The position numbers and the translations under genes are program-made. From the NCBI RefSeq assembly GCF_014199195.1, contig NZ_JACIJE010000002.1, forward strand, positions 310,001-374,000: a DNA stretch of 64,000 nucleotides, given 5' to 3'. This DNA is from Neoroseomonas alkaliterrae (GTDB lineage Bacteria > Pseudomonadota > Alphaproteobacteria > Acetobacterales > Acetobacteraceae). Of this stretch, positions 2,129-30,965 are shown one piece after another. The first letter of the stretch is position 1; the number at the start of each line of letters is the position of its first letter. The notes beneath the pieces were generated by a model. That model ran no database searches and had not been told where the DNA came from. It saw only the letters and a program-made list of their open reading frames with translations.

Positions 2129-2158
2129 CCCGGGCGGAGCGGGCGGGCCGGCCCTGCC

Positions 2159-3013: not shown

Positions 3014-3024
3014 GGCGGGTCCGT

Positions 3025-3756: not shown

Positions 3757-3873
3757 GAAGGCGGCTCCGGCTGCTTGTCGGGCGGGTTCGCGTTCACTAT
3801 GGTCCGCCGCGTTTTAGGCAAGCCGGTGCGGGGGCGCAAACCACTCCCGGGCCGCCGCGAGGGTTCGGGGCGC

Positions 3874-4410: not shown

Positions 4411-4502
4411 CGTCCTGGCCGCCGCCGCCGCGCGCCGCCGGAGGGGGTTCTTGGCGCGGCGGGGCCTCGGGCCGCGGGCGCAGCCTGGAGTCGTGGGAAC
4501 GC

Positions 4503-5285
4503 ATGGTCGGGGATGACATCATCGCGGCGGCCGAGGATTTCGCCGACGCCGCCGGGGCGGTGATCCGCCCGCTTTTCCGCTCTGCCCTCCTGGTCGAGGC
4601 CAAGGGCGATGCGAGCCCCGTCACGAAGGCCGACCGCGACGCCGAGGCCGCGATCCGCGACCTGATCGCCGCGCGCTTCCCCGCCCATGGCGTGATCGGC
4701 GAGGAGCACGGCAGCCACCGCGCCGATGCCGAATGGGTCTGGGTGCTGGACCCGATCGACGGCACCCGCGCCTTCGTGACCGGCCGGCCACTCTTCGGCA
4801 GCCTGATCGCGCTGTTGCATCGCGGCGCGCCGGTGCTCGGCATCATCGACCAGCCGGTGACGGGCGAGCGCTGGGTCGGCGCGGCCGGGCGGCCGACGCG
4901 CTTCCGCGCCCCGCTCGGCGGCCGGGCCGCCTGCCGGCCCTGCGCCGGGGTCGGGGCGGCGGAACTCTCCTGCACCAGCCCCGACATGTTCCGCCCCGCC
5001 GACCGCCCCGGATTCGAGCGCCTGCGCGCCGCCGCCCGGCGCGTGACCTGGGGCGGCGACTGCTACGCCTATGGGCTGCTCGCGCTCGGGCTCGTGGACA
5101 TCGTGGTGGATGCCACGATGAAGATCTGGGACTGGGCCGCGCTGGTGCCGGTGGTCGAAGGCGCCGGCGGCCGCGTGACCGGCTGGCGCGGCGAGACGCT
5201 GACTGCCGCCGCCGACGGGCGCGTGCTGGCGGTGGGCGACCCCGCCCTGCTGGAGGAGGCCGCGGGCCTGCTCACCGATCGGTAA
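4503..5285 (+). CDS. hisN: Inositol monophosphatase family protein, probable histidinol-phosphatase
   Basis: This 260-residue protein has the metal-binding motifs of the inositol monophosphatase superfamily: GEEHG at 66-70, DPIDGTRAF from 83, and a late IWDWAALVPVVEGAGG. The long DPIDGTRAFVTGRPLFGSLI block matches HisN-type histidinol-phosphatases of alphaproteobacteria, which remove phosphate from L-histidinol phosphate. General inositol or nucleotide phosphatase activity cannot be excluded. It starts 92 bp after the cytochrome gene on the same strand. No other his gene is in the window, so the specific name rests on family resemblance alone. Confidence 0.85.
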   Translation: MVGDDIIAAAEDFADAAGAVIRPLFRSALLVEAKGDASPVTKADRDAEAAIRDLIAARFPAHGVIGEEHGSHRADAEWVWVLDPIDGTRAFVTGRPLFGSLIALLHRGAPVLGIIDQPVTGERWVGAAGRPTRFRAPLGGRAACRPCAGVGAAELSCTSPDMFRPADRPGFERLRAAARRVTWGGDCYAYGLLALGLVDIVVDATMKIWDWAALVPVVEGAGGRVTGWRGETLTAAADGRVLAVGDPALLEEAAGLLTDR

Positions 5286-5332
5286 GCGCGCGGACGTTGC
5301 CGCGCGGGGGCCGAACCCCCATCCTGCACAGC

Positions 5333-7192
5333 ATGCAGCGACGTGACCTCCTGGCGCTTGGCGCCTTCGCCGCCCTTCCCGCCATGCCCCGGCAGGCCCG
5401 CGCCGTCGTCCCCGCCGGCGGCGACCGGCCGGGCGAGGTGGTGCGCACCCATGCGCTCTCGCTGCTGGCCGAACCCAAGCTGCCGCGCGACTTCCCGCAT
5501 TTCGGCTGGGCCAATCCCGATGCGCCGAAGGGCGGGGAGGTGGTGCTCGCGCGCCTCGGCTCCTTCGACAGTTTCAACCCCTTCATCCTGCGCGGCACGC
5601 CCGATGCCGGCATCGGGCTGATCTACGACACGCTGATGGCCGGGAATGCCGACGAGGCCACGGCCGAATACGGGCTGATCGCCGAGACGGTGGAACTGCC
5701 CGCCGACCGTCGCGGCGTCGCCTTCGAACTGCGCGAGGCGGCGCGCTGGCACGACGGCCGGCCCGTCACCGCCGAGGACGTCGTCTTCACCTTCAACGCG
5801 CTGCGCACGCATGGGCGGCCCTTCTTCCGCGCCTATTGGGCCGACGTGGCGGAGGTGGTGGCCGAAGGCCCCCGGCGCGTGGTGTTCCGCTTCCGCACCC
5901 CGGACAATCGCGAACTCGCCCAGATCCTGGGCGACCTGCCGGTGATGCCGCGGCACTGGTGGGAGGGGCGCGACTTCGCCCGCCCCTCGCTCGACGTGCC
6001 GCTGGGCTCGGGGCCCTATCGCCTCGAGCGGTTCGAGCCCAACCGCAGCGTGGTCTATCGCCGGGTCGAGGACTACTGGGCGCGCGACCTCAATGTCCGC
6101 CGCGGCCTCTACAACTTCGACACCATCCGCTACGAGTACTTCCGCGACACCACCGTCGCCTTCGAGGCCTTCAAGGCCGGCCAGGTGGATTTCCGCACCG
6201 AGAACGTCGCGCGCGACTGGGCCACCGGCTACGACTTCCCCGCCGCGCGCCGCGGCCTCGTGCGGCGCGAGGAGATCCCGCACGAGATCCCGACCGGGAT
6301 GCAGTGCTTCGCCGTCAACCTGCGCCGGCCGATGTTCCAGGATGCGCGCGTGCGCCGCGCGCTGATCGAGGCCTTCGACTTCGAGTGGATGAACGCCAAC
6401 CTGTTCTTCGGCGCCTATACCCGCACGAGTTCCTACTTCTCGAACTCCGACTTCGCCGCGCGCGGGCTGCCCGAGGGGCGGGAGAAGGAGATCCTGGAAG
6501 GCTTCCGCGGCCGCGTGCCGGAGACGGTCTTCACCGAGGAATACCGCCTGCCGGTCACCGACGGCTCGGGCAACAACCGCGAAGGGCTGCGCCGCGGCCT
6601 CGCCCTGCTGCGCGAGGCCGGCTGGACGGTGCAGAACCGGCGCCTCGTGAACGCCCAGGGCCAGCCCTTCGAGTTCGAGATCCTGCTCCAGGGCGCCACC
6701 TTCGAGCGCGTGGCGCTGCCCTATGTGCAGTGGCTCGCCCGCCTCGGCATCACCGCCCGCGTGCGCACCGTGGACCCCGCGCAATACCAGGTCCGCACCG
6801 ACGCCTTCGACTTCGACATGACGGTCGAGAGCATGGGCCAGGGCTTCTCGCCGGGGAACGAGCAGCGCGACTACTGGACCTCGGCCAAGGCGGCCGAGAA
6901 CGGCAGCCGCAACACCGCGGGCATCGCCGACCCGGCGATCGACGAGCTGGTGGAGCTCGTCATCGGCGCGCCGAACTACGACGAGCTGGTCGCGCGGACC
7001 CGCGCGCTCGACCGCGTGCTGCTGCACCACAACTTCGTCATCCCGCACTGGCACACCCGCACCTTCCGCATCGCCTTCTGGGACAAGTTCGGCCGGCCCG
7101 AGCGCAACCCGCGCTACGGCCTCGCCTTCCCCTCGGCCTGGTGGAGCGACCCGGCGCGCGAGCGCGCGCTTGCCGAAGCGCGCCGCGGCTAG
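5333..7192 (+). CDS. yejA: Extracellular solute-binding protein of a microcin C/peptide ABC transporter
   Basis: This 619-residue periplasmic binding protein (SBP family 5) starts with a twin-arginine-like leader QRRDLLALGAF and a cleavage-like ARA near residue 24. It is unusually long, as is typical of YejA. FGWANPDAPKGGEVVLARLG near residue 60 and FDSFNPFILRGTP are strong YejA hallmarks. It delivers peptides, or peptide-nucleotide compounds such as microcin C in the best-studied relatives, to the YejBEF importer. It is the first gene of a yejA-B-E-F set, and yejB begins 6 bp after its stop. Confidence 0.93.
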   Translation: MQRRDLLALGAFAALPAMPRQARAVVPAGGDRPGEVVRTHALSLLAEPKLPRDFPHFGWANPDAPKGGEVVLARLGSFDSFNPFILRGTPDAGIGLIYDTLMAGNADEATAEYGLIAETVELPADRRGVAFELREAARWHDGRPVTAEDVVFTFNALRTHGRPFFRAYWADVAEVVAEGPRRVVFRFRTPDNRELAQILGDLPVMPRHWWEGRDFARPSLDVPLGSGPYRLERFEPNRSVVYRRVEDYWARDLNVRRGLYNFDTIRYEYFRDTTVAFEAFKAGQVDFRTENVARDWATGYDFPAARRGLVRREEIPHEIPTGMQCFAVNLRRPMFQDARVRRALIEAFDFEWMNANLFFGAYTRTSSYFSNSDFAARGLPEGREKEILEGFRGRVPETVFTEEYRLPVTDGSGNNREGLRRGLALLREAGWTVQNRRLVNAQGQPFEFEILLQGATFERVALPYVQWLARLGITARVRTVDPAQYQVRTDAFDFDMTVESMGQGFSPGNEQRDYWTSAKAAENGSRNTAGIADPAIDELVELVIGAPNYDELVARTRALDRVLLHHNFVIPHWHTRTFRIAFWDKFGRPERNPRYGLAFPSAWWSDPARERALAEARRG

Positions 7193-7198
7193 ACCGCC

Positions 7199-8320
7199 AT
7201 GGCGGCCTATCTCCTCCGCCGCCTGCTGCTGGTGGTGCCGACGCTGTTCGGCATCATCCTGATCAATTTCGCGGTGGTGCAGTTCGCCCCGGGCGGGCCG
7301 GTCGAGCAGATGCTCGCGGAACTGCGCGGGGAGGGGCAGTCCGTCCTCGGCCGCGTCACCGGCGAGGGCGGCGGCGAGGTCCGCGCCCCGGCATCCGAGA
7401 TGCGCGCGGGCACGGGGGCGGGCGGGGATGCGCCGGTCGGCACCTATCGCGGCGCGCGCGGGCTCGACCCCGCCATCGTCGCCGAGATCGAGCGCGCCTT
7501 CGGCTTCGACAAGCCCGCCACCACGCGCTTCATGGAGATGCTGGGCGGCTACCTGCGCTTCGACTTCGGCCGCTCGCTGTTCCGAGACAGGCCGGTGGTG
7601 GACCTGATCCTCGAGAAGATGCCGGTCTCGATCAGCCTCGGCCTGTGGTCCACCCTCATCATCTACCTCGTCTCCATCCCCTTGGGCATCCGCAAGGCGG
7701 TGCGGGACGGTTCGCGCTTCGATGTCATGACCTCGGGCGTGGTGCTGGTGGGCTACGCCATCCCGGGCTTCCTCTTCGCCATCCTGCTGGTGGTGCTGTT
7801 CGCGGGCGGGTCCTTCCTGCAGTGGTTCCCGCTGCGCGGCCTCGCGAGCCCCGGCGCGGCCGAGCTGCCCTTCCTCGAACGCGCGCTCGACTACGCCTGG
7901 CACATGGTGCTGCCCACGCTGACGCTGGTGATCGGCGGCTTCGCCGGGCTGACCATGCTGACCAAGAACTCCTTCCTCGACGAGATCGGCAAGCAGTACG
8001 TCGTCACCGCCCGCGCCAAGGGCAACACCGAGCGGCGCATCCTCTACGGGCACGTGTTCCGCAACGCGATGCTGCTGATCATCGCCGGCTTCCCGGCCGC
8101 CTTCATCGGCATCCTCTTCACCGGCGCGCTGCTGACCGAGATCATCTTCTCCCTCGACGGGCTCGGCCTGCTCGGCTTCGAAAGCGCCATCCGTCGGGAC
8201 TACCCGGTGATGTTCGCAACCCTCTACATCTTCACGCTGCTCGGCCTCGTGATGCAGATCGTGGGCGACTTCACCTACACGCTCGTGGACCCGCGCATCG
8301 ACTTCGAGGCGCGGCGGTGA
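7199..8320 (+). CDS. yejB: Peptide/microcin C ABC transporter permease
   Basis: This 373-residue inner-membrane permease belongs to the DppB/OppB family. It has an N-terminal membrane segment (about residues 9-27). A periplasmic loop of roughly 100 residues contains an extended YejB-type insert rich in Gly and Glu. About five further membrane segments follow. The permease/ATPase coupling loop is visible as [20 protein letters not shown]. Length is as expected for YejB, which is longer than ordinary DppB. Its stop is followed by 142 bp of hairpin-rich DNA before yejE, which is unusual inside this operon. Confidence 0.95.
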
Positions 8321-8351
8321 TGGGGGCGATGGTCGTGGCGCGGGTGTCGCC

Positions 8352-8448
8352 GCGGGAGGGCGCCGCCCTCCCGCCAACCAGCCAATCTCCGGTGTCCAGA
8401 GGCCTTTCGGCCTCTGGCGGGGGGTGCAGGGGGGCAGCGCCCCCCTGC
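8352..8448. repeat. Three perfect hairpins in tandem inside the yej operon (REP/BIME-like element)
   Basis: The yejB-yejE gap holds three perfect inverted repeats. The first has 10-bp arms GCGGGAGGGC at 8352-8361 and 8365-8374. The second has 9-bp arms CCAGAGGCC at 8396-8404 and 8409-8417 around a TTTC loop. The third has 10-bp arms GCAGGGGGGC at 8426-8435 and 8439-8448. No T-tract follows, so a simple intrinsic terminator is not indicated. Position inside an operon suggests an RNA-stabilising or attenuating repeat (inference). Confidence 0.8.
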
Positions 8449-8462
8449 CGCCGCGCCGTGCC

Positions 8463-9503
8463 ATGACCCTCACCCCGCTCACCCGCCGCCGCCTCGCCAA
8501 TTTCCGCGCCAACCGGCGCGGCTATTGGTCGTTGATGATCTTCGCGGTGCTGTTCTTCGTGACCCTGTTCGCGGAGTTCATCGCCAATGACCGTCCGCTG
8601 GTCGCGAAGGTGGACGGGCGCTGGTACTTCCCGGTGCTGGTGGACTATGCCGAGAGCGATGTGGTCCAGGATGGCCTGCCCACGCTTGCCGACTGGCATG
8701 ATCGCGGCTTCCGCGAGGACATCGAAGCCAAGGGCGGCTGGATGGTCTGGCCGCTGGTGCCCTATTCCTACCGCAGCGTGGTGCGGGATCTCGGCCAGCC
8801 CGCGCCCTCCCCGCCTTCGGCGCGCAACTGGCTCGGCACGGACGACCAGGCGCGGGACGTGCTGGCGCGGGTGATCTACGGCTTCCGCATCTCGGTGCTG
8901 TTCGGCTTCACGCTGACCATCGTCAGTTCCATCATCGGCATCGCCGCGGGCGCGGTGCAGGGCTTCTATGGCGGCTGGGTGGACCTGATCTTCCAGCGCT
9001 TCATCGAGATCTGGTCGGGCATGCCGCAGCTCTACCTGCTCATCATCCTCGCCAGCGTGATCGAGCCCTCCTTCTGGGTGCTGCTGGTCTTCCTGCTCCT
9101 GTTCTCCTGGATGGGGCTGACGGGCGTGGTGCGGGCGGAGTTCCTGCGCGGGCGCAACTTCGATTATGTGCGCGCGGCCAAGGCGCTCGGCGTCTCCGAC
9201 ACGGTGGTGATGTTCCGCCACATCCTGCCCAACGCGATGGTGGCGACGCTGACCTTCCTGCCCTTCATCCTCAGCGGCAGCGTCACCGTGCTCGCGAGCC
9301 TCGACTTCCTCGGCTTCGGCCTGCCGCCGGGCTCGCCCTCGCTCGGCGAGCTCGTGAACCAGGGCAAGAACAACCTGACCGCGCCGTGGCTCGCGATGAC
9401 CGGCTTCGTCGTGCTCGGCACCATGCTGACGCTGCTGATCTTCGTGGGCGAGGCGGTGCGCGACGCCTTCGACCCCCGCAAGCTGCCGGGGGGCGGGCGC
9501 TGA
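8463..9503 (+). CDS. yejE: Peptide/microcin C ABC transporter permease
   Basis: This 346-residue permease belongs to the DppC/OppC family. The N-terminal LTPLTRRRLANFRANRRGYW is typical of YejE, and a membrane segment follows at about 25-45. A long periplasmic loop contains the characteristic NWLGTDDQARDVLARVIYGF. Five or so further membrane segments come next, with the coupling loop VRAAKALGVSDTVVMFRHIL. The ATG at 8463 has no obvious Shine-Dalgarno sequence because the hairpin array runs almost up to it. A start 13 codons upstream would place coding sequence inside the third hairpin and is less likely. The stop overlaps the yejF start by one base. Confidence 0.94.
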   Translation: MTLTPLTRRRLANFRANRRGYWSLMIFAVLFFVTLFAEFIANDRPLVAKVDGRWYFPVLVDYAESDVVQDGLPTLADWHDRGFREDIEAKGGWMVWPLVPYSYRSVVRDLGQPAPSPPSARNWLGTDDQARDVLARVIYGFRISVLFGFTLTIVSSIIGIAAGAVQGFYGGWVDLIFQRFIEIWSGMPQLYLLIILASVIEPSFWVLLVFLLLFSWMGLTGVVRAEFLRGRNFDYVRAAKALGVSDTVVMFRHILPNAMVATLTFLPFILSGSVTVLASLDFLGFGLPPGSPSLGELVNQGKNNLTAPWLAMTGFVVLGTMLTLLIFVGEAVRDAFDPRKLPGGGR

Positions 9504-11110
9504 TGACGCTGCTGAGGGTCGAGAACCTCGCCGTCGCCTTCCGCGGCAAGCGCGTGGTCGAGGGCGTCTCCTTCACCGTCGAGCGCGGGGAGACGGTGGC
9601 GCTGGTGGGCGAATCCGGCTCGGGCAAGTCGGTCACCGCCCTCTCCTGCCTGAAGCTGCTGCCGGGCGCGGGCGGGAATCCGGAAGGGCGGATCGTGCTC
9701 GACGGGACGGAGGTGCTCTCGGCCCCCGATGCCGAGTTGCGTCGGCTGCGCGGCGGCGTGGCGGGGATGGTGTTCCAGGAGCCCATGACCTCGCTCAACC
9801 CGCTGCACACGGTCGAGCGCCAGGTGGGCGAGGCGATCACGCTGCACCAGGCGCTGGCGGGGCCGGCGCTGCGCGCGCGCATCATCGAGCTGCTGCGCCG
9901 CGCGGGCTTTCCCAATGCCGAGGAGCGGCTCGGCGCCTATCCGCACCAGCTCTCGGGCGGGCAGCGGCAGCGGGTGATGATCGCCGCCGCACTCGCCAAC
10001 GATCCCAAGCTGCTGATCGCCGACGAGCCGACCACCGCGCTCGACGTCACCATCCAGGCGCAGATCCTCGAACTGCTGCAGCGCCTCAAGCGCGAGAGCG
10101 GCATGGCGATGCTGCTCATCACCCACGACCTCAACATCGTGCGCAAGCACGCCGACCGCGTGGTGGTGATGAAGGACGGGCGCGCGGTGGAGCAGGGCAG
10201 GGTGGCGGAGGTCTTCGCCGCCCCGCAGCACGCCTATACGCGGATGCTGCTCGCCACCGAGCCGCGCGGCGCGCCGCCGCCGGTCACGGAGGATGCGGCC
10301 GAGGTGATGCGCGGCGAGCAGGTGAAGGTGCTCTTTCCCATCCGCCGCGGCCTGCTGCGCCGCGTGGTCGGCCATGTCCGCGCGGTGGACGGCGTGAGCG
10401 TGAGCGTGCGGGAGGGCGAGACGGTCGGCCTTGTCGGCGAATCGGGCTCGGGCAAGACGACGCTTGGCCTTGCGCTGCTGCGCCTCGAGGACAGCGAGGG
10501 CGCGATCCGCTTCGAGGGCGCGGCCATCCAGGGCCTTGGCCGGTCGCAGCTGCGCCCGCTGCGCCGGCGGATGCAGATCGTCTTCCAGGACCCGTTCGGC
10601 GCCCTTTCCCCGCGCATGAGCGTGGCCGAGATCGTGGGCGAGGGCCTCGCGGTGCACGAGCCCGGCCTGAGCCGGCAGCAGCGCGCGGCGGCGGTCGCCA
10701 CGGCGCTGGAGGAGGTCGGCCTCGAGCCCGCCATGGCCGAGCGCTACCCGCATGAGTTCTCGGGCGGGCAGCGCCAGCGCATCGCCATCGCGCGCGCGCT
10801 GGTGCTCAAGCCGCGCTTCCTCGTGCTCGACGAGCCGACCAGCGCGCTCGATGTCAGCGTGCAGGCGCAGGTGGTGGACCTGCTGCGCGCGCTGCAGGCG
10901 AAGCACCGGCTGGCCTACCTCTTCATCTCGCACGACCTGCGCGTGGTGCGCGCGATGGCGCACCGGATCATCGTGCTCAAGGACGGCAAGGTGGTGGAGG
11001 AGGGCGAGGCAGCGCAGGTTGTCGGCGCGCCGCGGGAGGCCTACACCCGCGCCCTGATGGCCGCGGCATTCGATCTCAGGGCCGAGGCGACGGCAGGGCT
11101 CAGGACTTGA
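9503..11110 (+). CDS. yejF: Peptide/microcin C ABC transporter ATP-binding protein (duplicated ATPase)
   Basis: This 535-residue protein carries two complete ABC ATPase domains. Each has a Walker A of the form GESGSGK (the first at about 36-42), an LSGGQRQR or FSGGQRQR signature, and a Walker B followed by DEPT. C-terminal oligopeptide/dipeptide-type extensions follow each half. Fusion of the two ATPases into one chain is normal for YejF. It energises the YejBE permease. Its ATG overlaps the yejE stop (TGATG), and its own stop overlaps the TTG start of the next gene. Confidence 0.95.
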
Positions 11111-14733: not shown

Positions 14734-15501
14734 TTATTGTATCGGAACGTTCGATGCCCTGGAATGGACCGGCGTCAGCCCGTCCAGCAGGGCGGCGGCC
14801 AGCGCCTCGGCGAGGCAGGCATAGCCGCGGTCGTTGTGGTGCAGGTCGTCGCCGGTCAGCACCGCGCCGCCGGGCACGCCCGCCCGCGCCCAGGCATCCA
14901 TCAGCGCGCCGCGCGAGAACAGCGCGACACCCGGCACGGCGCGGGCGAGCTCGGCCGTGATGGCGTCGTAGGTGCGGTGGTTCGGCCGCGCGGCGATGCG
15001 CGGGGCGCGCTGGTTGTCCATCAGCACGACGGAGATGCCGGCCTGCGTCAGCCGCTCCAGCCCTTCCCGCACCAGGGCGCGATAGCGTTCGGGATCGGCC
15101 GAGCGCAGCGCGGAATTGCCGCCCACCTGCCAGATCACGAGGTCCGGCTGCGCGGCCAGCACGTCGCGGTCCAGGCGGGCGGCCATCTCCTCCGCCGCCT
15201 CGCCACCGATGCCGCGGTTCAGGACCGTCACCGGCAGGCCGAGGGCGTAGCGCAGCCGCCGCTCGAGCACGGCGGGATAGCTGCGCAGCGCCTCGGTCGC
15301 CCCCGCCCCGGCGGTGGAGGAGGAGCCGAAGGCCACGATCACCGGCGCGCGCCGCGCCGCCACCGCGGCCGCGAAGCTCGGTGCGGGCAGGGGGGCCATG
15401 GCCACGGGCGGGCAGGGGGCGGGCGGCGCCAGGGCGGCGGCGGGCGCGGCGGCGCCGAGCCCGGCCAGCAGCGCCAGGACGATCCTGTCCGGTGCCCTCA
15501 T
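14734..15501 (-). CDS. SGNH/GDSL-type hydrolase (secreted or periplasmic)
   Basis: This 255-residue protein has an N-terminal hydrophobic leader (MRAPDRIVLALLAGLGAA, Ala-rich to about residue 25). The SGNH fold motifs follow: block I as FGSSSTAGAGA with the nucleophilic Ser, block II with Gly in NRGIGGE, block III as VGGNSALR, and block V as DDLHHNDRGY carrying the Asp-His pair. Family members are esterases, lipases or carbohydrate O-acetyl esterases. As the last gene of the rhamnose operon (ATGA overlap with rfbD), it could act on acyl groups of the surface glycan (inference). No substrate is proven by the sequence. Confidence 0.85.
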   Translation of the reverse strand: MRAPDRIVLALLAGLGAAAPAAALAPPAPCPPVAMAPLPAPSFAAAVAARRAPVIVAFGSSSTAGAGATEALRSYPAVLERRLRYALGLPVTVLNRGIGGEAAEEMAARLDRDVLAAQPDLVIWQVGGNSALRSADPERYRALVREGLERLTQAGISVVLMDNQRAPRIAARPNHRTYDAITAELARAVPGVALFSRGALMDAWARAGVPGGAVLTGDDLHHNDRGYACLAEALAAALLDGLTPVHSRASNVPIQ

Positions 15502-16385
15502 GCCGCGTGCAGCGCCCGCATCACACGGGCGAGCCCCTCCTGCCAGGGCGGCAGCCGCACGCCGAACACCGCCGCGAGGCGCGCGCAGTCGAGCCGGCCA
15601 TCGGCCGGGCGCCGCGCGCGGGCGGGGTATTCCCCGGTGGCGATGGCGCGGATGCGCGGCGACGGCCCGCCATGGGCGCGGGCGGCGGCGAAGATGGCCT
15701 CCGCGAAGCCGTGCCAGGAGGTGTGGCCGGCGGCGGTGGCGTGGAAGACCCCGCCATGGGCCGGCCGCCAGCCTTCCGCGCGGATGCGCGCGAGGATGGC
15801 CGCGATCGCCTCCGCGAGGTCGGCCGCGGCGGTGGGCGCGCCGATCTGGTCGGCGACCACGGAGAGGTCCCTGCGCTCGGCGGCGAGGCGAAGCATGGTG
15901 CGCAGGAAATTGGTGCCTGCCGGCGCATAGATCCAGGAGGTGCGCAGCACGATGCTGCGCGGATTGCCCGCCAGCGCCGCCCATTCGCCCGCCAGCTTGG
16001 TCCGGCCATAGGCGCCGAGCGGGTTCGGCGGGTCCGCCTCGGCATAGGGCGCGCCCTTGGTCCCGTCGAAGACGTAGTCGGTCGAGAGCTGGACCAGCGG
16101 GATGCCGCGCGCCGCGCAGCCCCGGGCGAGCAGCGCGGGCCCGAGGGCATTGGCGCGGAAGGCGGCGGGCTCGTTCTCCTCGGCCGCGTCCACCGCGGTC
16201 CAGGCGGCGCAGTTCACCACCGCCTCGGGCGCCATCGCGGCCAGCAGGGCCTCGATGCTGGCGGGGCGGTCGAAATCGAGCGCGGGCCGCCCCGCGGGCA
16301 GCGCCTCGAACCCCTGGGCCGGCAGCGCGGCCAGCAGGGCCGAGCCGACCTGGCCGCCCGCGCCGGTGACCAGGATGCGGCGCAT
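15498..16385 (-). CDS. rfbD: dTDP-4-dehydrorhamnose reductase
   Basis: This 295-residue extended short-chain dehydrogenase begins with the nucleotide-binding loop GAGGQVGSALL. It shows the RmlD motifs NCAAWTAVDAAEE, STDYVFDG and the catalytic YGRTK. It carries out the last step of dTDP-L-rhamnose synthesis, an NADPH-dependent reduction. The ATG overlaps the rfbC stop by one base, and its own stop overlaps the SGNH hydrolase start by four bases. It is the final sugar-nucleotide gene in the run rfbB-rfbA-rfbC-rfbD. Confidence 0.96.
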   Translation of the reverse strand: MRRILVTGAGGQVGSALLAALPAQGFEALPAGRPALDFDRPASIEALLAAMAPEAVVNCAAWTAVDAAEENEPAAFRANALGPALLARGCAARGIPLVQLSTDYVFDGTKGAPYAEADPPNPLGAYGRTKLAGEWAALAGNPRSIVLRTSWIYAPAGTNFLRTMLRLAAERRDLSVVADQIGAPTAAADLAEAIAAILARIRAEGWRPAHGGVFHATAAGHTSWHGFAEAIFAAARAHGGPSPRIRAIATGEYPARARRPADGRLDCARLAAVFGVRLPPWQEGLARVMRALHAA

Positions 16386-16945
16386 CACCAGCTCCCGCGC
16401 GGGAAGGGGGGCGGGATCTCGGCGAGCAGCGGCGCGCTGTGGTCCTTCTCGGAGAGCACCGGCTCGGCGACCGGCCAGGCGATGCCGAGCGCGGGGTCGT
16501 TCCAGCGGATCGCCGCATCCGCCTCCGGCGCGTAATAGGCGTCGGTCTTGTAGAGCACCTCGGTGTCCGGCTCGAGCGTCAGGTAGCCATGGGCGAAGCC
16601 GCGCGGCACCCAGAGCTGGAGCCAGTTCGCGGCACTCAGTTCGATCGCGACATGCCGGCCATAGGTCGGCGAGCCCTCGCGGATGTCCACCGCGATGTCG
16701 AGGATCGCCCCGCGCGCCACGCGGATCAGCTTGCCCTGGGCATGCGGCGGGCGCTGGAAATGCAGCCCGCGCAGCACGTGGCGCGGCGCGGAGGCAGCAT
16801 GGTTGTCCTGCACGAAATCCGCCGCGATCCCGGCATCGGCCAGCGCGCGGCGCGACCACACCTCGCTGAAGAAGCCGCGGGCGTCGCCGTGGCGGACCGG
16901 CTCGACCAGCAGCAGGTCGGGGATGGCAAGCGGCGTGACCTTCAC
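16385..16945 (-). CDS. rfbC: dTDP-4-dehydrorhamnose 3,5-epimerase
   Basis: This 186-residue cupin-fold enzyme contains the RmlC hallmarks [18 protein letters not shown] (active-site region with the catalytic His), [18 protein letters not shown] and [12 protein letters not shown]. It epimerises dTDP-4-keto-6-deoxyglucose at C3 and C5. Its start overlaps the rfbA stop by four bases (ATGA), and its stop shares a base with rfbD. Length and order are normal for the pathway. Confidence 0.96.
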
Positions 16946-17823
16946 TGCAGGCGCCCGGCCGCGAGGTCCCGCAGATAGGTGCCATAGGCGGTCTTGCCGA
17001 GCGCATCGGCCTGGCGCGTCAGGGCCGCGGCGTCGATGAAGCCCATGCGGAAGGCGATCTCCTCCGGGCAGCCGACCTGCAGGCCCTGGCGGTCCTGCAC
17101 GGTCTGCACGAAGAGTGCCGCCTGCAGCAGCGAAGCCGGCGTGCCGGCATCGAGCCAGGCGCAGCCGCGGCCGAGCTGTTCCGCATAGAGGGATCCGAGG
17201 CCGAGATAGATCCTGTTGAGGTCCGTGATCTCGAGCTCCCCGCGCGCCGAGGGGGCGAGGTCGCGGGCGAGCGCGGTCACGCGGGAATCGTAGAAGTAGA
17301 GCCCGATCACCGCCCAGTCCGATCTCGGCTGCCGCGGCTTCTCCTCGAGCGAGAGCACGCGCCCCGCGGCGTCGAACTCGGCCACGCCGTAGCGTTCGGG
17401 GTCGGCCACGCGGTAGCCGAAGATGGTCGCCTCCCCGGCCCTGGCCCGCTCGGCCGCCGCCTTGAGGCTTTCCACCAGGCCATGGCCGTAGATGATGTTG
17501 TCCCCGAGCGCCAGCGCGCAGGGCTGCCCGCCGATCCAGTCGGCGCCGATGTGGAAGGCCTGGGCGATGCCCTCGGGCTTCGGCTGCTCGGCATAGGTGA
17601 TGGTCACGCCGAACTGGCTGCCGTCGCCGAGCAGGCGGCGGAACTGCGGCAGGTCGGCCGGTGTCGAGATCAGCAGGATGTCGCGGATGCCCGCCAGCAT
17701 CAGCGTGCCGAGCGGGTAATAGACCATCGGCTTGTCATAGACCGGCAGGAGCTGCTTCGAGGCCGCGAGCGTCATCGGATGCAGTCGCGTGCCGGACCCG
17801 CCGGCGAGCAGGATGCCCTTCAT
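16942..17823 (-). CDS. rfbA: Glucose-1-phosphate thymidylyltransferase
   Basis: This 293-residue nucleotidyltransferase starts with [18 protein letters not shown], the RmlA signature. It continues with [10 protein letters not shown], which contributes to the active site, and [10 protein letters not shown], which holds the metal-binding Asp. It forms dTDP-glucose from dTTP and glucose 1-phosphate and is the committed step toward rhamnose. Feedback inhibition by dTDP-rhamnose is known for the family. It lies 43 bp downstream of rfbB and overlaps rfbC. Confidence 0.97.
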
Positions 17824-21611: not shown

Positions 21612-23676
<2,065 letters not shown>

Positions 23677-23720: not shown

Positions 23721-24743
23721 TCAAGAGGTCCGGAACCACTGCGCCATCGCGCGGAGCCGTGCCGTCAGCCCGGCGGGCAGGCGGCGCGCGAGCCTGCCGG
23801 GGAGGGAGGCGGGGGCCGCTGGCGCGCCCAGGGCTTCGCGCAGCCGGGCCGCCTCGATCCGCTCGCGCAGCCAGGCCTGCTGGAACATCTCGATCCGCCG
23901 CCTGTCCCATTCCGCGCTGCGATAGAGCGGCGCCGCGTTCTGGATGGCGAAGACCTCCGGCTGGCCCTTGGCGAGATCGGAGGAGGCGCCGCCCATCGCG
24001 AAGGAGGCGATGACGGTCGGGATCCGGCGCAGCCGGATCTCCGGATCGCCGATCACCGCGAGCCACCATGCGTAGTCGGCATGGCGCCGCCAGCGCAGGT
24101 CGAAGGGGCCGGTGCGCTCGAACACCGCACGCCGGGCGAGCGTCGCCTGGTGGGGCAGGCAGCCCAGCACCATCTCCTCGGCGGCCTTCTCGGGCGGCGG
24201 CGGGGCGTAGACGTGCCGCTCCCCGCCGATCCGCACCTCGAGCGAGCCGTAGTACACGTCGCCTCCGGGATCGGCGGCGATCGCGGCCATGGCGTCGCGC
24301 AGCGCATCCGGCCCGGCGAAGAGATCGTCGGCGTTCAGGAACAGCACGAACTCGCCCCTCGCGCGCGCGACGCCCTTGTTCATGGCGTCGTAGAGGCCCG
24401 AATCGGGTTCCGACACCAGGACGGCGAGCCGCGGGCGCCAGGCCTCCAGCATGGCGAGCGTGCCGTCGGTCGAGACGCCGTCGATGACGATGTGCTCCAC
24501 CGCCGGCCAGGTCTGGGCGGCGACGCTCTCGAGGCAGGCCTGCAGGGTCGCGGCGGCGTTGCGGCAGACGGTGACGACGCTGACGAGGGGCTTGCCCGGG
24601 TCGGCCGGGAGCGGGTTCGGGTCCACCTGGTCCTGGAACTCCTGACATTCGGCGCCGGCATGGGCGGCCCGCGCCTCATCATGCACGCCTCCCGCACCGC
24701 CGGGAAATCGGCCCGGCCGCGCGAAGCCGCTTGCGCGCGGCAT
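23721..24743 (-). CDS. Family 2 glycosyltransferase
   Basis: The domain is clear: LVSVVTVCRNAAATLQACLE at about residue 53, HIVIDGVSTDGTLAMLEAW, YDAMNKGVARARGEFVLFLN and NADDLF with the DxD-like site, then PHQATLARRAVFERTGPFD. This is a GT-A family 2 transferase of a WcaA-like type, probably adding a sugar to the surface glycan. The start is uncertain. The long form begins at 24743 (340 residues), but a GTG at 24686 sits just after GGGAGG on the minus strand and would remove a low-complexity leader. The gene is divergent from the FkbM methyltransferase. Confidence 0.9.
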   Translation of the reverse strand: MPRASGFARPGRFPGGAGGVHDEARAAHAGAECQEFQDQVDPNPLPADPGKPLVSVVTVCRNAAATLQACLESVAAQTWPAVEHIVIDGVSTDGTLAMLEAWRPRLAVLVSEPDSGLYDAMNKGVARARGEFVLFLNADDLFAGPDALRDAMAAIAADPGGDVYYGSLEVRIGGERHVYAPPPPEKAAEEMVLGCLPHQATLARRAVFERTGPFDLRWRRHADYAWWLAVIGDPEIRLRRIPTVIASFAMGGASSDLAKGQPEVFAIQNAAPLYRSAEWDRRRIEMFQQAWLRERIEAARLREALGAPAAPASLPGRLARRLPAGLTARLRAMAQWFRTS

Positions 24744-24799: not shown

Positions 24800-25834
24800 A
24801 TGAACAATCCGGTGGCGCGGATCAAGGGGATCCTCGGCGAGTTGCTGCTGAACGGCCGGCAGGCGCTGGAAGTGATGCGCGCGCAGGCCATGCGGCTGGA
24901 CCGGATCGACGAGGGCCAGGCGCTGCGCCTCGGGCGTCTGGAGCGTGAGCAGGCGCGACGGTTCGCGGCGCTCGAGCGGAAGCTCGAGGCGATGGGCGCC
25001 CATGGCGGACTGCCCGGTGTGCCGGGTGCGCCGGTGGAGGCAATCGCAGCCGAACCGCTCGACGAAATTGCCAGCTTGAGCCGCGAGCGCGCGCGCATCC
25101 TCCGGCTCGCCGCGCTGCTCGCGCCGTTCCGTCCGCGCGATGCGCGCAAGGTCAGGGTCGGCCCGCCCCGGGATGGCGGCTATGTCATGGTCGAGGACTG
25201 GGGCGGGCTCGCGGGGGCCATCTCGATCGGCATCGGCGATGACGATGCCTGGGACCGCGCGATGCTCGGCCATGGCTGCCCCGTCGCGCAATTCGACCAC
25301 ACCATCACCGCGCCGCCGGGCACCGCCCCCGGGCTTGCCTGGCAGCCCCTCGGGATCGGCACCGTGGATGTGAACAACATCCGCACGCTGCGCTCGCTGA
25401 TCGCGCTCTCCGGTTTGCCGGAGGCCGGCGACCTGGTGCTCAAGATGGATGTCGAGGCCGCCGAGTGGCCGGTCCTCGCGGCGGGGGAAGCCACGGCGCC
25501 GCTCGAGCGGTTCCGGCAGATCCTGATCGAGTTTCACTGGTTCGACCGGATCGGCGGGGACCGCTGGTTCGCGGAGGCCGAGGCCGCGCTGACGCATCTT
25601 ACGCGCAGCCATGCGGTTGTGCATGTGCACGCCAACAACTGGGGTGGCGCGGCGCTGATCGGGGGCGTCCCCTTCCCCTGCGTCCTCGAGGTGACGCTCC
25701 TGCGCCGCGACGTCGCCGAACTGGAGCCGGAGACCGGCTTCTTCCCGACGCCGCTCGACGCGCCCTGCAATCCTTCGCGGCCCGACATATTCCTCGGCAC
25801 CTTCCGCTTTCCGCAGCCTCCGGCGGACGAGTGA
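24800..25834 (+). CDS. FkbM family methyltransferase
   Basis: This 344-residue protein has an N-terminal helical, Arg/Glu-rich segment (about 1-100) likely to form a coiled coil. An FkbM-type SAM methyltransferase domain follows. It shows ISIGIGDDDAWDRAM (binding loop region), LVLKMDVEAAEWPVL (the FkbM D-E-E hallmark) and ILIEFHWFD. Such enzymes O-methylate sugars or other small groups in polysaccharide loci. AAGGGGAGGG upstream supports the ATG. The long upstream frame overlaps the divergent gene and is discarded. It is the first gene of a plus-strand group with the 993-residue protein, the sulfotransferase and a GT4. Confidence 0.88.
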   Translation: MNNPVARIKGILGELLLNGRQALEVMRAQAMRLDRIDEGQALRLGRLEREQARRFAALERKLEAMGAHGGLPGVPGAPVEAIAAEPLDEIASLSRERARILRLAALLAPFRPRDARKVRVGPPRDGGYVMVEDWGGLAGAISIGIGDDDAWDRAMLGHGCPVAQFDHTITAPPGTAPGLAWQPLGIGTVDVNNIRTLRSLIALSGLPEAGDLVLKMDVEAAEWPVLAAGEATAPLERFRQILIEFHWFDRIGGDRWFAEAEAALTHLTRSHAVVHVHANNWGGAALIGGVPFPCVLEVTLLRRDVAELEPETGFFPTPLDAPCNPSRPDIFLGTFRFPQPPADE

Positions 25835-25957: not shown

Positions 25958-28939
25958 TTGACGAGCACGAGCCCATCCGAAGCCGTTTCGGACCTCGACC
26001 GCATCATTCCTCCCGAGATCAAGAACGACGCCTTCTACCGGCTGATCACGGAGCTCTCGGCGACCGAGGATCTGCGCCATGTCCTCGAGATCGGCTCCTC
26101 CGCGGGCGGCGGCAGCACCGAGGCCTTCGTGGCCGGGCTCGCGAGGAATCCGGGCCAGCCGAAGCTGTTCTGCATCGAGGTCTCTAGGCCGCGCTTCGAG
26201 GTGCTGCGCCAGACCTACGCCGACCGGCCCTTCGTGCACTGCTACAACATGTCCTCTGTCGCACCCTCGGAGTTCCCGAGCGAGGACGACGTCAAGAATT
26301 TCTACCATAACGAGAAATCGGGCCTGCGGAAGTTCCCGCTTGACGAGGTGCTGCGCTGGCTCGAGCAGGACATCGCCTATGTCGAGGGCGCGGGCGTCGA
26401 AGCCGGCGCGATCGAGCGCATCAAGGCCGAGCACGGCATCGAGCATTTCGACCTGGTGCTGATCGACGGGTCGGAATTCACCGGCGAGGTCGAGCTCGAG
26501 AAGGTGCTCGGCGCGCGGCTGATCCTGCTCGATGACACCAACACCTACAAATGCTTCCGGGCACGCCAGCGGCTGCTGCTCGACCCGAACTACGAGCTCA
26601 TCGCCGACGACCAGAGCCTGCGCAACGGCTATTCGGCCTTCCGCCGCCGCGCGGATGCCGAAGACCTGCCGGTCCACTTCTTCACCATCGTCCTCAATGG
26701 CGAACCCTTCATCCGCTATCACGAGACGATGCTGGCGAAACTGCCCTTCCGCTGGCACTGGCACGTGGTGGAGGGCGTCGCCGCGCTGAAGCACGATACC
26801 GCCTGGAGCACCGCCAACGGCGGCAAGGTCACCGATTCCATCCACCGGGAGGGCCGCAGCACCGACGGCACGAGCGAATACCTCGACGATCTCGCGCGCC
26901 GCTTCCCCGACCGCGTCACGCTCTACCGCAAGCCGCCCGGCGCCTTCTGGGACGGCAAGCGGGAGATGGTGAACGCGCCGCTGCCCAACATCCGCGAGAC
27001 CTGCCTGCTGTGGCAGATGGACGCCGACGAGCTCTGGACCGTGGAGCAGGTGAGCGAGATGCGCCGCCGCTTCATCGCCGAGCCGACGCGCGGCGCCGCC
27101 TACTACTGGTGCTGGTACTTCGTCGGGCCGGAGAAGGTCATCGCCACGCGCAACAACTACGCGCAGAACCCGGCGGTGGAATGGCTGCGGACCTGGCGCT
27201 TCCGGCCGGGCGACCACTGGGCCGCGCATGAGCCGCCGACGCTGGTCCGCCCCGCGCCCGATGGTTGCGCGCCCGTGGACATCGCGACGCTCGCGCCCTT
27301 CACGCAGGACGAGACCGAAGCCTTCGGCTGCGTGTTCCAGCACTTCGCCTATGTCACGGAGGCGCAGCTCGCCTTCAAGGAGAGCTACTACGGCTATGCC
27401 GGCGCGACGGCGCGCTGGCGTGCGCTGCTCGCGCGGCCTGGCCCTGGGCTGCTCGCCGACCACTTCGACTGGGTGAACGACGGGACGGTCTTCGACGACG
27501 CCACGGTGCTGCGCGTCGCCCCGCTCGCGCGCCAGGGCGCGGATGGCGCCTGGTCGTTCAGCGCGCCCGATGCCGCGCCGGAACCCCCGCCGGTGCCTGT
27601 CCGGCCGCGCATCGTGGTGGACGGCATCTATTGGCAGTATCTCGCCTCGGGCATCGGGCGCGTCTGGCACTCCATGCTCGAGGAATGGGTGAAGGCCGGG
27701 CTTGCCGACCACTTCGTGCTCCTCGACCGCGCCGGCACCGCACCGCGCATCCCGGGGGTGCACATGCGCGGCATCGCGGCGCATGACTACGCGCGCACCG
27801 GCGAGGACAGCCTGCTGCTCGAACGGATCTGCCGGGAGCTCGGCGCGGACCTTTTCGTCTCGACCTACTATTCGTCGCCAACCGCAACGCCCTCCTTCTT
27901 CTTCGGCCACGACATGATCCCGGAGATGACGGGCGAGGACCTCTCGGAGGAGGTGTGGCAGGAGAAGGCGCGCGCCATCCGCCATGCATGCGGGCACGCC
28001 ATGGTCTCGGCGAGTTCCGCCCGCGACCTCGCGCGGCTGCATCCCGAGGTCGCGGAGGCCGATATCACCATCGCCCTTAATGGCCTGCCGCCCGGCTTCA
28101 GCCCGGCGACGGAGGCGGAGATCGCCGAGACGCGCCGCGCGCTCGGCATCAGGGGCGACTATCTGCTGATGGTGGGCGACCGCAGCGGCGCGGGCGGCTA
28201 CAAGAACGGCATCCTCGCCTTCCGCGCGGCCGCGCTCGCCGCCGCGAAGGGCCATGCCTTCGAGATCCTGTGCGTCGGCGGGGCGGAGGAGGTCGAGGCC
28301 GCCTTCCGCGCCGCCGTGCCCGAGGTGAAGGCGCGCCGTGTCAAGGCGGATGACGAGACCCTGCGCCGTCTTTACTCGGGCGCGCATGCGCTGGTCTACC
28401 CGTCGCGCTACGAAGGCTTCGGCATGCCGGTGCTGGAGGCGATGGCCTGCGGCTGCCCGGTGGTCACCTGCGCCAGTTCCTCGCTGATCGAGGTGGGCGG
28501 CGAGGCGGCGATCTTCGTCGAGCCCGAGGATGCGGAGGCCGCGGCCGCTGCGCTGGTCGCGCTCGCGGATCCGGCGGCGCGGGCTGCCCGCCGCGCCGCC
28601 GGCATCGCCCAGGCGGCGCGCTTCACCACGGCGGCGCAGGCCGCGACGGCGATGTCGGCCTTCCGCGCCGCGCTCGCGGGTGTCGAATCCGGCGCGCGGC
28701 CCCGGCCCGGCCCCGGCTGGGAGGAGTTCCGCCGCTACCAGGCGGGCATCCAGGCCTCGCTTGCCGAGGGCGCCGGGTTCCTGCAACGCGCGCGGCGCCG
28801 GGGTGGCTCGGGCCGCGTTGCGGGCGAGCTGCAGCGCGCGCTGATCGAGATCGCGTCCATGAAGAACAGCCCGTTCTGGAAGCTGCGCGGCGTTGTCATC
28901 GGCGTCCTGCGCCGCCTCGGGCTGCGTCAGCGCGGATGA
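25958..28939 (+). CDS. Three-part protein: SAM-methyltransferase-like, GT2-like and GT4 glycosyltransferase domains
   Basis: This 993-residue protein starts at TTG because no earlier in-frame ATG exists. Residues about 20-230 form a Rossmann-like region with [16 protein letters not shown] (42-57) and [14 protein letters not shown] (164-177), like a class I SAM methyltransferase. Residues about 235-510 resemble a GT2-like transferase, with [22 protein letters not shown] and the MDADELW metal motif near 355. Residues about 545-930 are a GT4 domain, with [26 protein letters not shown] and [19 protein letters not shown]. The tail SPFWKLR (971-977) is shared with the next protein. It probably performs two glycosyl transfers plus a modification on one chain. 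Activity of the N-terminal part is uncertain. Confidence 0.85.
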
Positions 28940-28976: not shown

Positions 28977-29867
28977 ATGATCGTCTGGCTCGCCTCCTAT
29001 CCGCGCTCCGGCAATACCCTGCTGCGGATGCTGCTGAGCCGGCATTTCGGGCTCCGCAGCTGGTCGGTGCATGGCGACGGCGACGCGCGGGACATCGGCG
29101 CCGAACTTGCGTCCATCGTCGGCTTCGAGCCGCATGGGCCGCTCGGCGAGGATGCCCTGGCCGAGATGGCCGCCTCCGACGAGACGTTTCTCGTCAAGAC
29201 GCACAACCTGCCGCCGCCCGGCCGCGACTGGCCTGCGATCTGCGTGGTGCGCGACGGCCGCTCGGCGCTGGCCTCCTACTGGCACTACCGCAATCGGCCC
29301 GGCGATGTCGGGCATACGATGCCCGAGGTGGTCGCGGGCGCGGTGCAGTTCGGCTCCTGGTCGGCCCATGTCGCGGCGTGGCTGGATGCGCCGCTGAGCC
29401 GCCGCCTGGTGCTGCGCTACGAGGATCTCGCTGGGCCTTCGCCCGGCGCGCTTGCGGCGATCGGGGATTTCCTCGGACATGCGCCGGCCCCGGCGCCGCC
29501 GGCGGAGTTCGCGACGCTGAACGCGCTTGCGCCGACGCACTTCCGCGGCGGAAGCGATGCGCGCAACATCGCCGAGCTGCAAGCCTGCTGCCCCGCGCTG
29601 TTCGATGCGCTGCACGGCCCCATGCAGGCACGGCTCGGCTATCCGCCCGCGATGGCCGCCGGCGATCCCGAGGCGGCGCTGGCCGCTGAACTCGCCGCGG
29701 CGATGACGGCGCTGCGCGAGGCGCGCGATGCGGACCGCGCCGGGCTCGAGGCAGCGCTGTCCACGCTGCGGCAGGAACTCGACGGCATGCGCCGAAGCCC
29801 CTTCTGGCGGGCGCGGGAGCGCGTGGTCGGGCTGCTGCGATCGGCCGGCCTGCGCCGGCGCGGCTGA
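28977..29867 (+). CDS. Sulfotransferase domain protein
   Basis: This 296-residue protein begins MIVWLASYPRSGNTLLRMLL, in which YPRSGNT (8-14) is the 5-prime phosphosulfate-binding loop of PAPS-dependent sulfotransferases. CVVRDGRSALASYWHYRN supplies the 3-prime phosphate-binding Arg and Ser, and LVLRYEDLAG follows. It would transfer sulfate to a glycan or other acceptor in the cytoplasm. The last 60 residues are a helical extension ending in SPFWRARERVVGLLRSAGLR, matching the tail of the preceding protein. The start was chosen at the family N-terminus. The frame open upstream overlaps the preceding gene. Confidence 0.88.
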   Translation: MIVWLASYPRSGNTLLRMLLSRHFGLRSWSVHGDGDARDIGAELASIVGFEPHGPLGEDALAEMAASDETFLVKTHNLPPPGRDWPAICVVRDGRSALASYWHYRNRPGDVGHTMPEVVAGAVQFGSWSAHVAAWLDAPLSRRLVLRYEDLAGPSPGALAAIGDFLGHAPAPAPPAEFATLNALAPTHFRGGSDARNIAELQACCPALFDALHGPMQARLGYPPAMAAGDPEAALAAELAAAMTALREARDADRAGLEAALSTLRQELDGMRRSPFWRARERVVGLLRSAGLRRRG

Positions 29868-29876
29868 GGCCGCCTC

Positions 29877-30965
29877 ATGCGCATCCTGCTCTGGTACTGG
29901 GGCCGCAAGGGTGCCGGCGGGCAGCTCGCCCTCGCGCTGGCCGATGCGCTGCGCCGGCGCGGTGATGTCGGGCTGGCGCTCTCGCTCTCCGCCCAGGCCG
30001 ATCTGCTGGGCCCGATGCGCGCGCTCGGCATGCCGCTCGATGCGGTGCCGACCTATGCCAGCGCCGCCGGATTCGCCGCGGGCTTCCTGCGCCTGCCGCT
30101 GCTCGCGCGGCGGCTGCGGCGCCAGGCGCTGGACTTCCGCGCCGATGTCGTGGTCTCGGTGATGACCCACCTCTGGACGCCGCTGGTCGCGCCGGGGCTG
30201 AAGCGCGCCGGCCTGCGCTTCGTGCCCATGGTCCATGACGCCGATCCGCATCCCGGCGATCCCGGCGCCTTCTGGGAATGGCGCCTGACCCGCGAGCTCG
30301 ACGCTGCGGAAAGCGTGATCGCCTTCTCCGACAGCGTCGCGGCGGGCATCGCCCGGCGGCGGCCGGGCCTTGCGGTGCATCGGCTCGAACTCGGCGCGCT
30401 TCTTCCCGCCCCGGTTGCCGAGCGGCCTCGCGCGGCGGACGGCACGGTGCGCTTCGTCCATGTCGGGCGGATGCGCGCCTACAAGGGGCTCGACTTGTTG
30501 CGCGACGCCTGGCGGCTGCTCGCCCCGCGCCATCCCGAGGCGCGGCTTCTCGTCGCCGGGGAGGGCGATGTCGAGGCCCTCGCGCCCGGCCTCGCCGCGC
30601 TGCCGGGCGTCACGGTCGAGGCGCGCTGGCTGTCCGAGTCCGAGATGGCCGCCATGGTGGCCGGCGCCGATGCGGTCGTGCTGCCTTATCGCGAGGCGAG
30701 CCAGAGCGGCGTCGCGCCGGTCGCGCACGGCCTCGGCGTGCCGGTCGTCGCGACGCCGGTGGGCGGGCTGGCCGAGCAACTGCGCGATGGTGTGGACGGC
30801 CTGCTCGCGCGCGCGCTCACACCCGGGGCGCTGGCGGAGGCGATGGCCGCGCTGTGCGATCCGGCGCGGCGGGCGGCGCTGGCCGAAGGCGCGCGCGAGA
30901 CCGGGCGGCGCCTGAACGACTGGGACGCCACGGCGGCGCGGCTGGTGGAGATCCTGCGCGGCTGA
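29877..30965 (+). CDS. Family 4 glycosyltransferase
   Basis: This 362-residue GT-B transferase begins MRILLWYWGRKGAGGQLALA and has a C-terminal Rossmann half with FVHVGRMRAYKGLDLLRDAW, ARLLVAGEGDVEAL, and the nucleotide-sugar loop YREASQSGVAPVAHGLGVPV followed by TPVGGLAEQLRDG. These features are typical of GT4. It would add a hexose or deoxyhexose to the surface glycan. It lies 9 bp after the sulfotransferase gene and ends the plus-strand group. It is convergent with a methyltransferase gene 120 bp away. Confidence 0.93.
   Translation: MRILLWYWGRKGAGGQLALALADALRRRGDVGLALSLSAQADLLGPMRALGMPLDAVPTYASAAGFAAGFLRLPLLARRLRRQALDFRADVVVSVMTHLWTPLVAPGLKRAGLRFVPMVHDADPHPGDPGAFWEWRLTRELDAAESVIAFSDSVAAGIARRRPGLAVHRLELGALLPAPVAERPRAADGTVRFVHVGRMRAYKGLDLLRDAWRLLAPRHPEARLLVAGEGDVEALAPGLAALPGVTVEARWLSESEMAAMVAGADAVVLPYREASQSGVAPVAHGLGVPVVATPVGGLAEQLRDGVDGLLARALTPGALAEAMAALCDPARRAALAEGARETGRRLNDWDATAARLVEILRG

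Follow-up and report, generated by a model that had tools for sequence, protein, structure and literature searches.

A conserved fusion of a methyltransferase-like domain with two glycosyltransferase domains, apparently a modular system for assembling methylated glycans

A single open frame in a 64,000-nucleotide stretch of Neoroseomonas alkaliterrae DNA (the window, meaning the whole stretch that was analysed) encodes a 993-residue protein (25958..28939, plus strand, TTG start) that joins a methyltransferase-like domain (MT), a GT-A domain and a GT-B domain of the GT4 type. The fusion is real and conserved; with its methyl part variously kept, missing, decayed or separate in distant relatives, it seems to be a modular system for assembling methylated glycans. 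We consider it probable that the protein is a soluble trifunctional glycan-assembly enzyme, whose GT-A and GT4 domains add sugars and whose MT domain O-methylates one of them, contributing to a cell-surface glycan. The evidence consists of the domain make-up, the predicted folds, the intact motifs, the co-occurrence of the parts in relatives and the context of the locus; the domain identities are predicted ones, drawn from fold modeling and motifs.

An AlphaFold2 model of the whole protein, built on a 26-row alignment, has a mean pLDDT of 85.6 and contains three confidently folded domains followed by a tail. The model agrees with a preliminary description of this DNA, which had placed three units in one chain and proposed structure prediction as a check. 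The domain searches proposed there gave a divided answer, as the GT4 part alone passed its Pfam cut-offs, whereas GT2, Methyltransf_24 and FkbM did not. The GT4-type GT-B domain (residues 548-911; 27599..28690, plus strand) matches PF13692 at 70.3 bits (cut-off 27) and PF00534 at 60.8 bits (cut-off 26.4), and its best structure match among those listed is MshA (3c4q, Z 34.0); in the search with the whole protein, GT-B chains filled the matches listed. The SRYEGFG sequence noted earlier near residue 820 lies at 816-822. It overlaps the EX7E motif of the GT4 active site (E819..E827; 28412..28438, plus strand), which is present in 40 of 42 aligned GT-B rows, a set that takes in L053 and L054 through their separate GT4 frames; from the two rows without it (L050 and L051) this half is absent. 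MshA and PimB' have the GT-B fold and EX7E in common with the window GT4 domain, which unlike them sits in a larger chain.

The chain closes with a helical tail ending SPFWKLRG... (28712..28936, plus strand), much of it modeled at low confidence, with helices at residues 919-947, 954-969 and 972-986. A similar short tail (SPFWxxR...GLRxRG) ends both the fusion (28862-28936) and the downstream sulfotransferase (29790-29864), and SPFW-type stretches also occur in L031, within its sulfotransferase homologue, and in L050, L058 and L059. This tail is possibly a docking or membrane tail shared by unrelated enzymes.

The GT-A domain (residues 235-541; 26660..27580, plus strand) was modeled alone by AlphaFold2 with a pLDDT of 93.9 and a pTM of 0.91. 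Among the matches listed, its closest solved chain is ThuS (Z 13.3, 175 residues aligned, 2.9 A), with RmlT, PcManGT, TarS and WrtF within Z 1 of it; over the best 50 matches, 166-234 of 312 residues are aligned. The domain has the GT-A fold, SxDGT and DxD of GT2 enzymes, and we term it GT2-like without filing it as GT2, because its Pfam GT2 score is below the cut-off (14.1 versus 23.3 bits). The DADEL metal motif reported near residue 355 is found at 355-359, and its DxD (D355-x-D357; 27020..27028, plus strand) is present in all 46 aligned GT-A copies, which are invariant at S301, D303, D355, D357, E358, H424, H462 and K474. The unusual motif spacing remarked upon in the preliminary description corresponds to a 27-residue insertion (274-300; 26777..26857, plus strand) between strand 2 and SxDGT. 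Four residues in or around the insert, E272, W283, S301 and D303, are retained in 45 or 46 of the 46 copies. ThuS, RmlT, TarS and WrtF have the GT-A core with DxD in common with the window domain, but not this insertion.

The GT-A family of the window protein is rare. At E 1e-8 its profile matched 2 of 385 genomes of the class, namely that of the window and that of a distant member, and the MT profile matched 1 of 385, again the window's own. The GT-A domain had no match among 50,697 phage records (E 1e-5), and sequence-profile searches of the PDB with the GT-A and MT domains returned nothing significant (none to E 10; best E 0.2). A distant GT-A relative at L064:1168-2280 ([10 protein letters not shown]..., with HRPP replacing HEPP) lies beside a GT4-like gene and hints at a broader family around the window GT-A.

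The SAM-binding-like region originally drawn at residues 42-177 belongs to a larger domain, extending over about residues 12-231 (25991..26650, plus strand) according to alignments, the AlphaFold2 model and hhalign. The model shows seven strands, whose order and motifs are of the class I methyltransferase type: strand 1 is followed by [12 protein letters not shown], strand 2 by E74, strand 4 by LIDGSEFTG and strand 5 by LLDD. D170, after strand 4 (26465..26467, plus strand), is a candidate metal or acceptor aspartate and is D in 26 of 27 MT copies; D192-D193, after strand 5 (26531..26536, plus strand), form a candidate metal-binding pair, present in 26 and 25 of the 27. These three residues and E44, G46, G52 and E74 are each found in 25 or 26 of the aligned copies, and 25 copies, the window protein among them, have intact SAM and acidic motifs. 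The alignment leaves out 14 partial or near-duplicate loci in favor of full or single copies, and L059 and L049, which fall below the profile cut, are absent from its 27 rows. D170, D192 and D193 lie where strands 4 and 5 end, the place of the metal ligands in NovP and MycF, which are metal-dependent sugar O-methyltransferases. The metal-site reading rests on this comparison, for which a search of the open-licence literature returned nothing.

Methyltransf_24 and FkbM had been suggested as labels for the domain, and of these the domain may weakly resemble the first. The window MT domain has no match to the Methyltransf_24 Pfam, which 2 of 14 MT members match (best E 0.049). Its hhalign comparison with a Methyltransf_24 set was moderate (prob 65, E 6.1e-5; 20 loci selected, 8 removed by a frame and motif filter, 12 used): motif I, IDG and DD align, and the window MT has in addition an extra segment at about 102-141. 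The controls were weak, all scoring below 1 against FkbM, GT-A and GT-B profiles and 0.85 against FkbM inserts (only 3 sequences); they say little, because Methyltransf_24 against FkbM, two undoubted methyltransferase families, itself scored just 0.14. An FkbM identity found no support: PF05050 has no match to the window protein and is missing from the family lists of the 14 MT members, and the comparison with FkbM inserts is uninformative.

The fusion lies among genes for sugar nucleotides and glycosyltransferases. To its left, the minus strand carries genes for a GT2 glycosyltransferase (23721..24743; PF00535 E 3.7e-24), GDP-mannose 4,6-dehydratase (GMD, 22564..23619; TIGR01472 602.5 bits, cut-off 415), GDP-L-fucose synthase (Fcl, 21612..22571; NF047922 511.8 bits, cut-off 500), a GT4, a further GT2, an RmlA-like nucleotidyltransferase (16942..17823; PF00483 E 1e-68; 66% over 174 residues to the annotated rfbA of L058) and an RmlD-like dTDP-4-dehydrorhamnose reductase (15498..16418; PF04321 E 5.7e-100). 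On the plus strand, a weakly FkbM-methyltransferase-like gene (24800..25834, start by inspection; PF05050 E 0.0064, below cut-off; counterparts at 58% in L030 and 54% in L031) precedes the fusion, which is followed by a sulfotransferase (28977..29867, start chosen by inspection; PF00685 E 1.9e-12) and a GT4 gene (29877..30965) conserved at 66-80% in eight Roseomonas-group loci. The GMD, Fcl and GT4 genes recur with the downstream GT4 in Roseomonas-group loci, and the sulfotransferase has a homologue in L031 and L042 only among the compared loci. In Geothrix (L054), the separate MT gene is flanked by GMD (520 bits, cut-off 415) and Fcl-like (302 bits, cut-off 500) genes. The link to GDP-fucose is not general, because none of the examined upstream genes of L043 and L046 is for sugar nucleotides. 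About 9 kb from an Azospirillum trio lie cysD and cysC, for sulfate activation (L059:23818-26585); they match the sulfotransferase beside the window trio, and a sulfated glycan is possible.

In the assembly reaction that we favor, the GT-A domain, metal-dependent, GT2-like and probably inverting, would add one sugar, and the GT4 domain, retaining, would add the neighboring one. The MT domain would be a SAM-dependent O-methyltransferase, probably with a metal held by D170, D192 and D193, and would methylate one sugar of the chain, either during its growth or once it is complete. Here the likely product is a glycan of the cell surface, built from GDP-L-fucose/GDP-mannose and/or dTDP-rhamnose and perhaps further sulfated. 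By analogy with WsaE and the modular O-antigen polymerases, the two glycosyltransferase domains would most likely make consecutive linkages and the MT domain act on the same chain. All three activities, with the linkage types, the order of steps, the methylated position, the sugars and the solubility, are what we would predict for the window protein. The intact motifs (25/27 for MT, 46/46 for DxD, and EX7E in the GT4 domain) argue for this trifunctional enzyme, as do the ties between MT and GT-A through fusion, through separate genes in the same locus (once directly adjacent) and through correlated divergence. Against it, the window MT and GT-A domains are both below Pfam cut-offs. In the open-licence literature we found no activity data for any family member.

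The full MT/GT-A/GT4 trio is found in Roseomonas-group genomes, on Azospirillum plasmids, in cyanobacteria and in a Desulfuromonadales genome. Homologues in several phyla therefore keep all three parts, but in others the MT is missing or separate. Among 35 genomes of the same genus, the GT-A domain is present in 11 and the MT in 6, every one of these MTs sitting in the fusion; the other five GT-A carriers have no MT match genome-wide (E 1e-6). An MT-like match is present in 15 of 291 evenly drawn cyanobacterial genomes. All 11 strong matches, 2 of which are seeds of the MT query, and a divergent, weaker copy (L089/L119) are fused to GT-A; three weak copies (G512, G648 and G674) are in proteins without a window-type GT-A, in frames of about 800 residues, that of G648 with a Glyco_trans_1_2 domain N-terminal to the MT-like domain. 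A paralogous MT-like domain ends frames of about 800 residues without window-type GT-A at L115:68-2452 and L116:3-2408, preceded in L115 by a Glyco_trans_1_2 domain. In three genomes, one from an actinobacterium and two from acidobacteria, the locus has a gene of its own for the MT, adjacent to the GT-A gene in L052 and about 5 kb off in L053 and L054.

Other combinations occur around the same GT-A domain. It stands alone in L054 and L057, is joined to a GT9-annotated half in L055, L056 and L060, is preceded by an N-terminal GT2 in L047, and is accompanied by a truncated GT4 in L050 and L051; by inspection, the second protein of L041 has a GT-A with an apparent methyltransferase C-terminus. 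The GT9-annotated combinations at L055:4311-6425 and L060:8031-9959 are from Azospirillum, and no other annotated glycosyltransferase lies within 8 kb of the L060 copy. In five cyanobacterial loci (L043, L044, L046, L082/L121 and L083/L118) an FkbM domain separates MT from GT-A, and in L120 an FkbM domain (same profile, E 9e-110) is encoded by the following gene together with a Methyltransf_24 domain. A trio relative at L049:5614-10080 combines a putative MT remnant with a long C-terminal run of FDxxFYxxxYPDV-type repeats.

The GT-A tree requires at least 10 switches of the MT label, and well-supported branches force 6 of them; the figure of 10 overstates pure gain or loss, because the rows scored as lacking MT include the separate genes of L052-L054, decayed or weak copies, and L045, with a frame truncated at a contig end. 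Three end branches of the tree are long (L064, L041 and L041_b), and its clean sister pairs with and without MT are L028/L036 (Neoroseomonas marina and N. oryzicola) and L029/L038. Across 23 rows, MT divergence correlates with GT-A divergence (Spearman 0.65; 0 of 2000 permutations as high in a Mantel test, which ignores tree structure). Consequently, the MT module may be old within the partnership and repeatedly lost, a mildly surprising pattern for the family; the tree by itself does not distinguish gains from losses.

This pattern bears on an alternative in which the glycosyltransferase pair is the working enzyme and the MT-like domain is structural, regulatory or vestigial, already lost or decaying across the family. 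In two alphaproteobacterial clades, the fusions of L058 and L042 have decayed MT motifs with intact glycosyltransferases, a decay read in their sisters L059 and L049 from alignment alone (L049 has no MT-like tblastn match), and no MT-like DNA is left in the loci fetched from sister species, L036 and L038 for example. Methylation is thus not essential to the glycosyltransferase pair, because five same-genus genomes have no MT and two clades have a decayed one. We nevertheless regard this alternative as unlikely, since 25 of 27 copies retain the SAM and aspartate motifs. These copies come from Roseomonas, cyanobacteria, Desulfuromonadales, an actinobacterium and two acidobacteria, and among them are three stand-alone genes and the divergent L089/L119. 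The preliminary description had raised the prospect of a non-catalytic N-terminal unit; the decayed motifs belong to other family members, and nothing in the predicted window domain, with its motifs intact, marks it as such.

A second alternative concerns the acceptor: the trio would extend and methylate a protein-placed sugar in the cytoplasm, and not build a lipid-linked polysaccharide. It originates in two fusions to an OGT/SPINDLY-like GT41 at the C-terminus. L117 has a 1977-residue frame (1158-7088) with the trio, then TPRs and then GT41, and L118, from a genome of the cyanobacterial class, has one 2747-residue frame (1739-9979) with the order MT-FkbM-GT-A-GT4-GT2-GT2-GT41. The L118 fusion is on a 6.7 Mb contig; the L117 genome has two more GT41 frames within about 4 kb, listed with L117:7079-7999. 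Counting these two, 7 of 26 genomes have GT41 no more than 10 kb from the trio, with 0.18 expected under a null of uniform placement that ignores the clustering of glycan genes; in the cyanobacterial subset, which includes the seeds G420 and G424, the count is 3 of 12. This proximity hints at protein-linked glycans in those seven genomes. In the same direction, the window contig (C2) has no match to the PF01061 exporter, the genome's four matches being on contigs C1 and C3. Against it, the window's own genome has no GT41 match, 6 of the 26 searched genomes have none, 13 more have none within 10 kb of the trio (for G427 and G431 the search covered the fetched stretch only, and several contigs are short), the uniform null disregards how glycosyltransferase genes cluster, and the window locus resembles an ordinary surface-polysaccharide locus. 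We judge protein glycosylation an unlikely role for the window protein.

We also offer, tentatively, a broader proposal that we hold to be doubtful. The trio would be both the extending and the capping core of a modular methylated-glycan assembly line; the GT41-fused cyanobacterial chain, as one soluble protein, could start, extend and methylate a protein sugar in the cytoplasm, and the Roseomonas version would be the same core working on a glycan that contains fucose, its methyl step being turned on in some sister species and off in others. We found no description of single-chain cyanobacterial protein glycosylation of the GT41-fusion type in the open-licence literature.

A chance or assembly fusion of unrelated genes, in keeping with Pfam recognizing the GT4 part only, is already refuted by the relatives, as the identical domain order recurs in many independent assemblies from several phyla and the coding signal is uniform. 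The claim of one uninterrupted 993-residue frame holds throughout. The entire frame is found in four same-genus genomes at 73-76% identity, and in a fifth (75%) it runs to residue 912, the end of its contig; in alignment, the TTG start lines up with the starts of relatives L028 and L029. The G+C content at codon positions 1, 2 and 3 is 0.69, 0.50 and 0.91, and the third-position value stays between 0.89 and 0.98 in all 10 blocks of the gene, which is coding-like throughout; nothing therefore suggests a frameshift join or a missed stop, the refutation that the preliminary description had envisaged, and a sequencing or gene-calling artefact is ruled out. The window's own genome contains a single full-length match to the protein. 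An overlapping 1532-residue frame on the minus strand was rejected as the true gene, having no Pfam match (E 0.1), while the plus-strand frame is kept in relatives. An anti-phage function was also rejected, with no PADLOC match at E 0.01.

The fusion adds a cross-phylum family to the few methyltransferase-glycosyltransferase fusions that we found described, and Pfam leaves two of its three domains unnamed in the window protein. The natural versions with, without and with decayed MT make the role of the methyl step testable by comparing the glycans of sister species, and the GT41 fusions suggest that cyanobacteria may glycosylate proteins with a single-chain system.

Within the open-licence literature, the relevant precedents found are WsaE and work on Klebsiella. 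In Klebsiella O7 ORF6, O12 WbbB and Escherichia coli O9 WbdA/WbdD, polymerase and terminator modules are fused or split by serotype (PMC11231755). The O7 and O9 methyltransferases are described there as paired with a kinase and their chain length as set by an extended coiled coil, whereas we found no kinase in the window system and its protein has a short helical tail only. WsaE of Geobacillus stearothermophilus NRS 2004/3a is described as a trifunctional enzyme with an N-terminal O-methyltransferase and two rhamnosyltransferase domains, acting on an S-layer glycan (PMC2943079, PMC3898925). Compared by description, the window protein has a WsaE-like domain make-up in fold and motifs. WsaE methylates the glycan it builds, and its cluster has rml genes, as the window locus has RmlA- and RmlD-like ones. 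WsaE differs in lying beside a Wzm/Wzt exporter, absent from the window contig by PF01061, and in making its linkages from dTDP-Rha, while the window fusion is flanked by GDP-sugar genes. The preliminary description had presented the combination as one not seen before, but the kind has a precedent in WsaE (PMC2943079). A methyltransferase joined to two glycosyltransferases is already known, and the window fusion is a variation on it.
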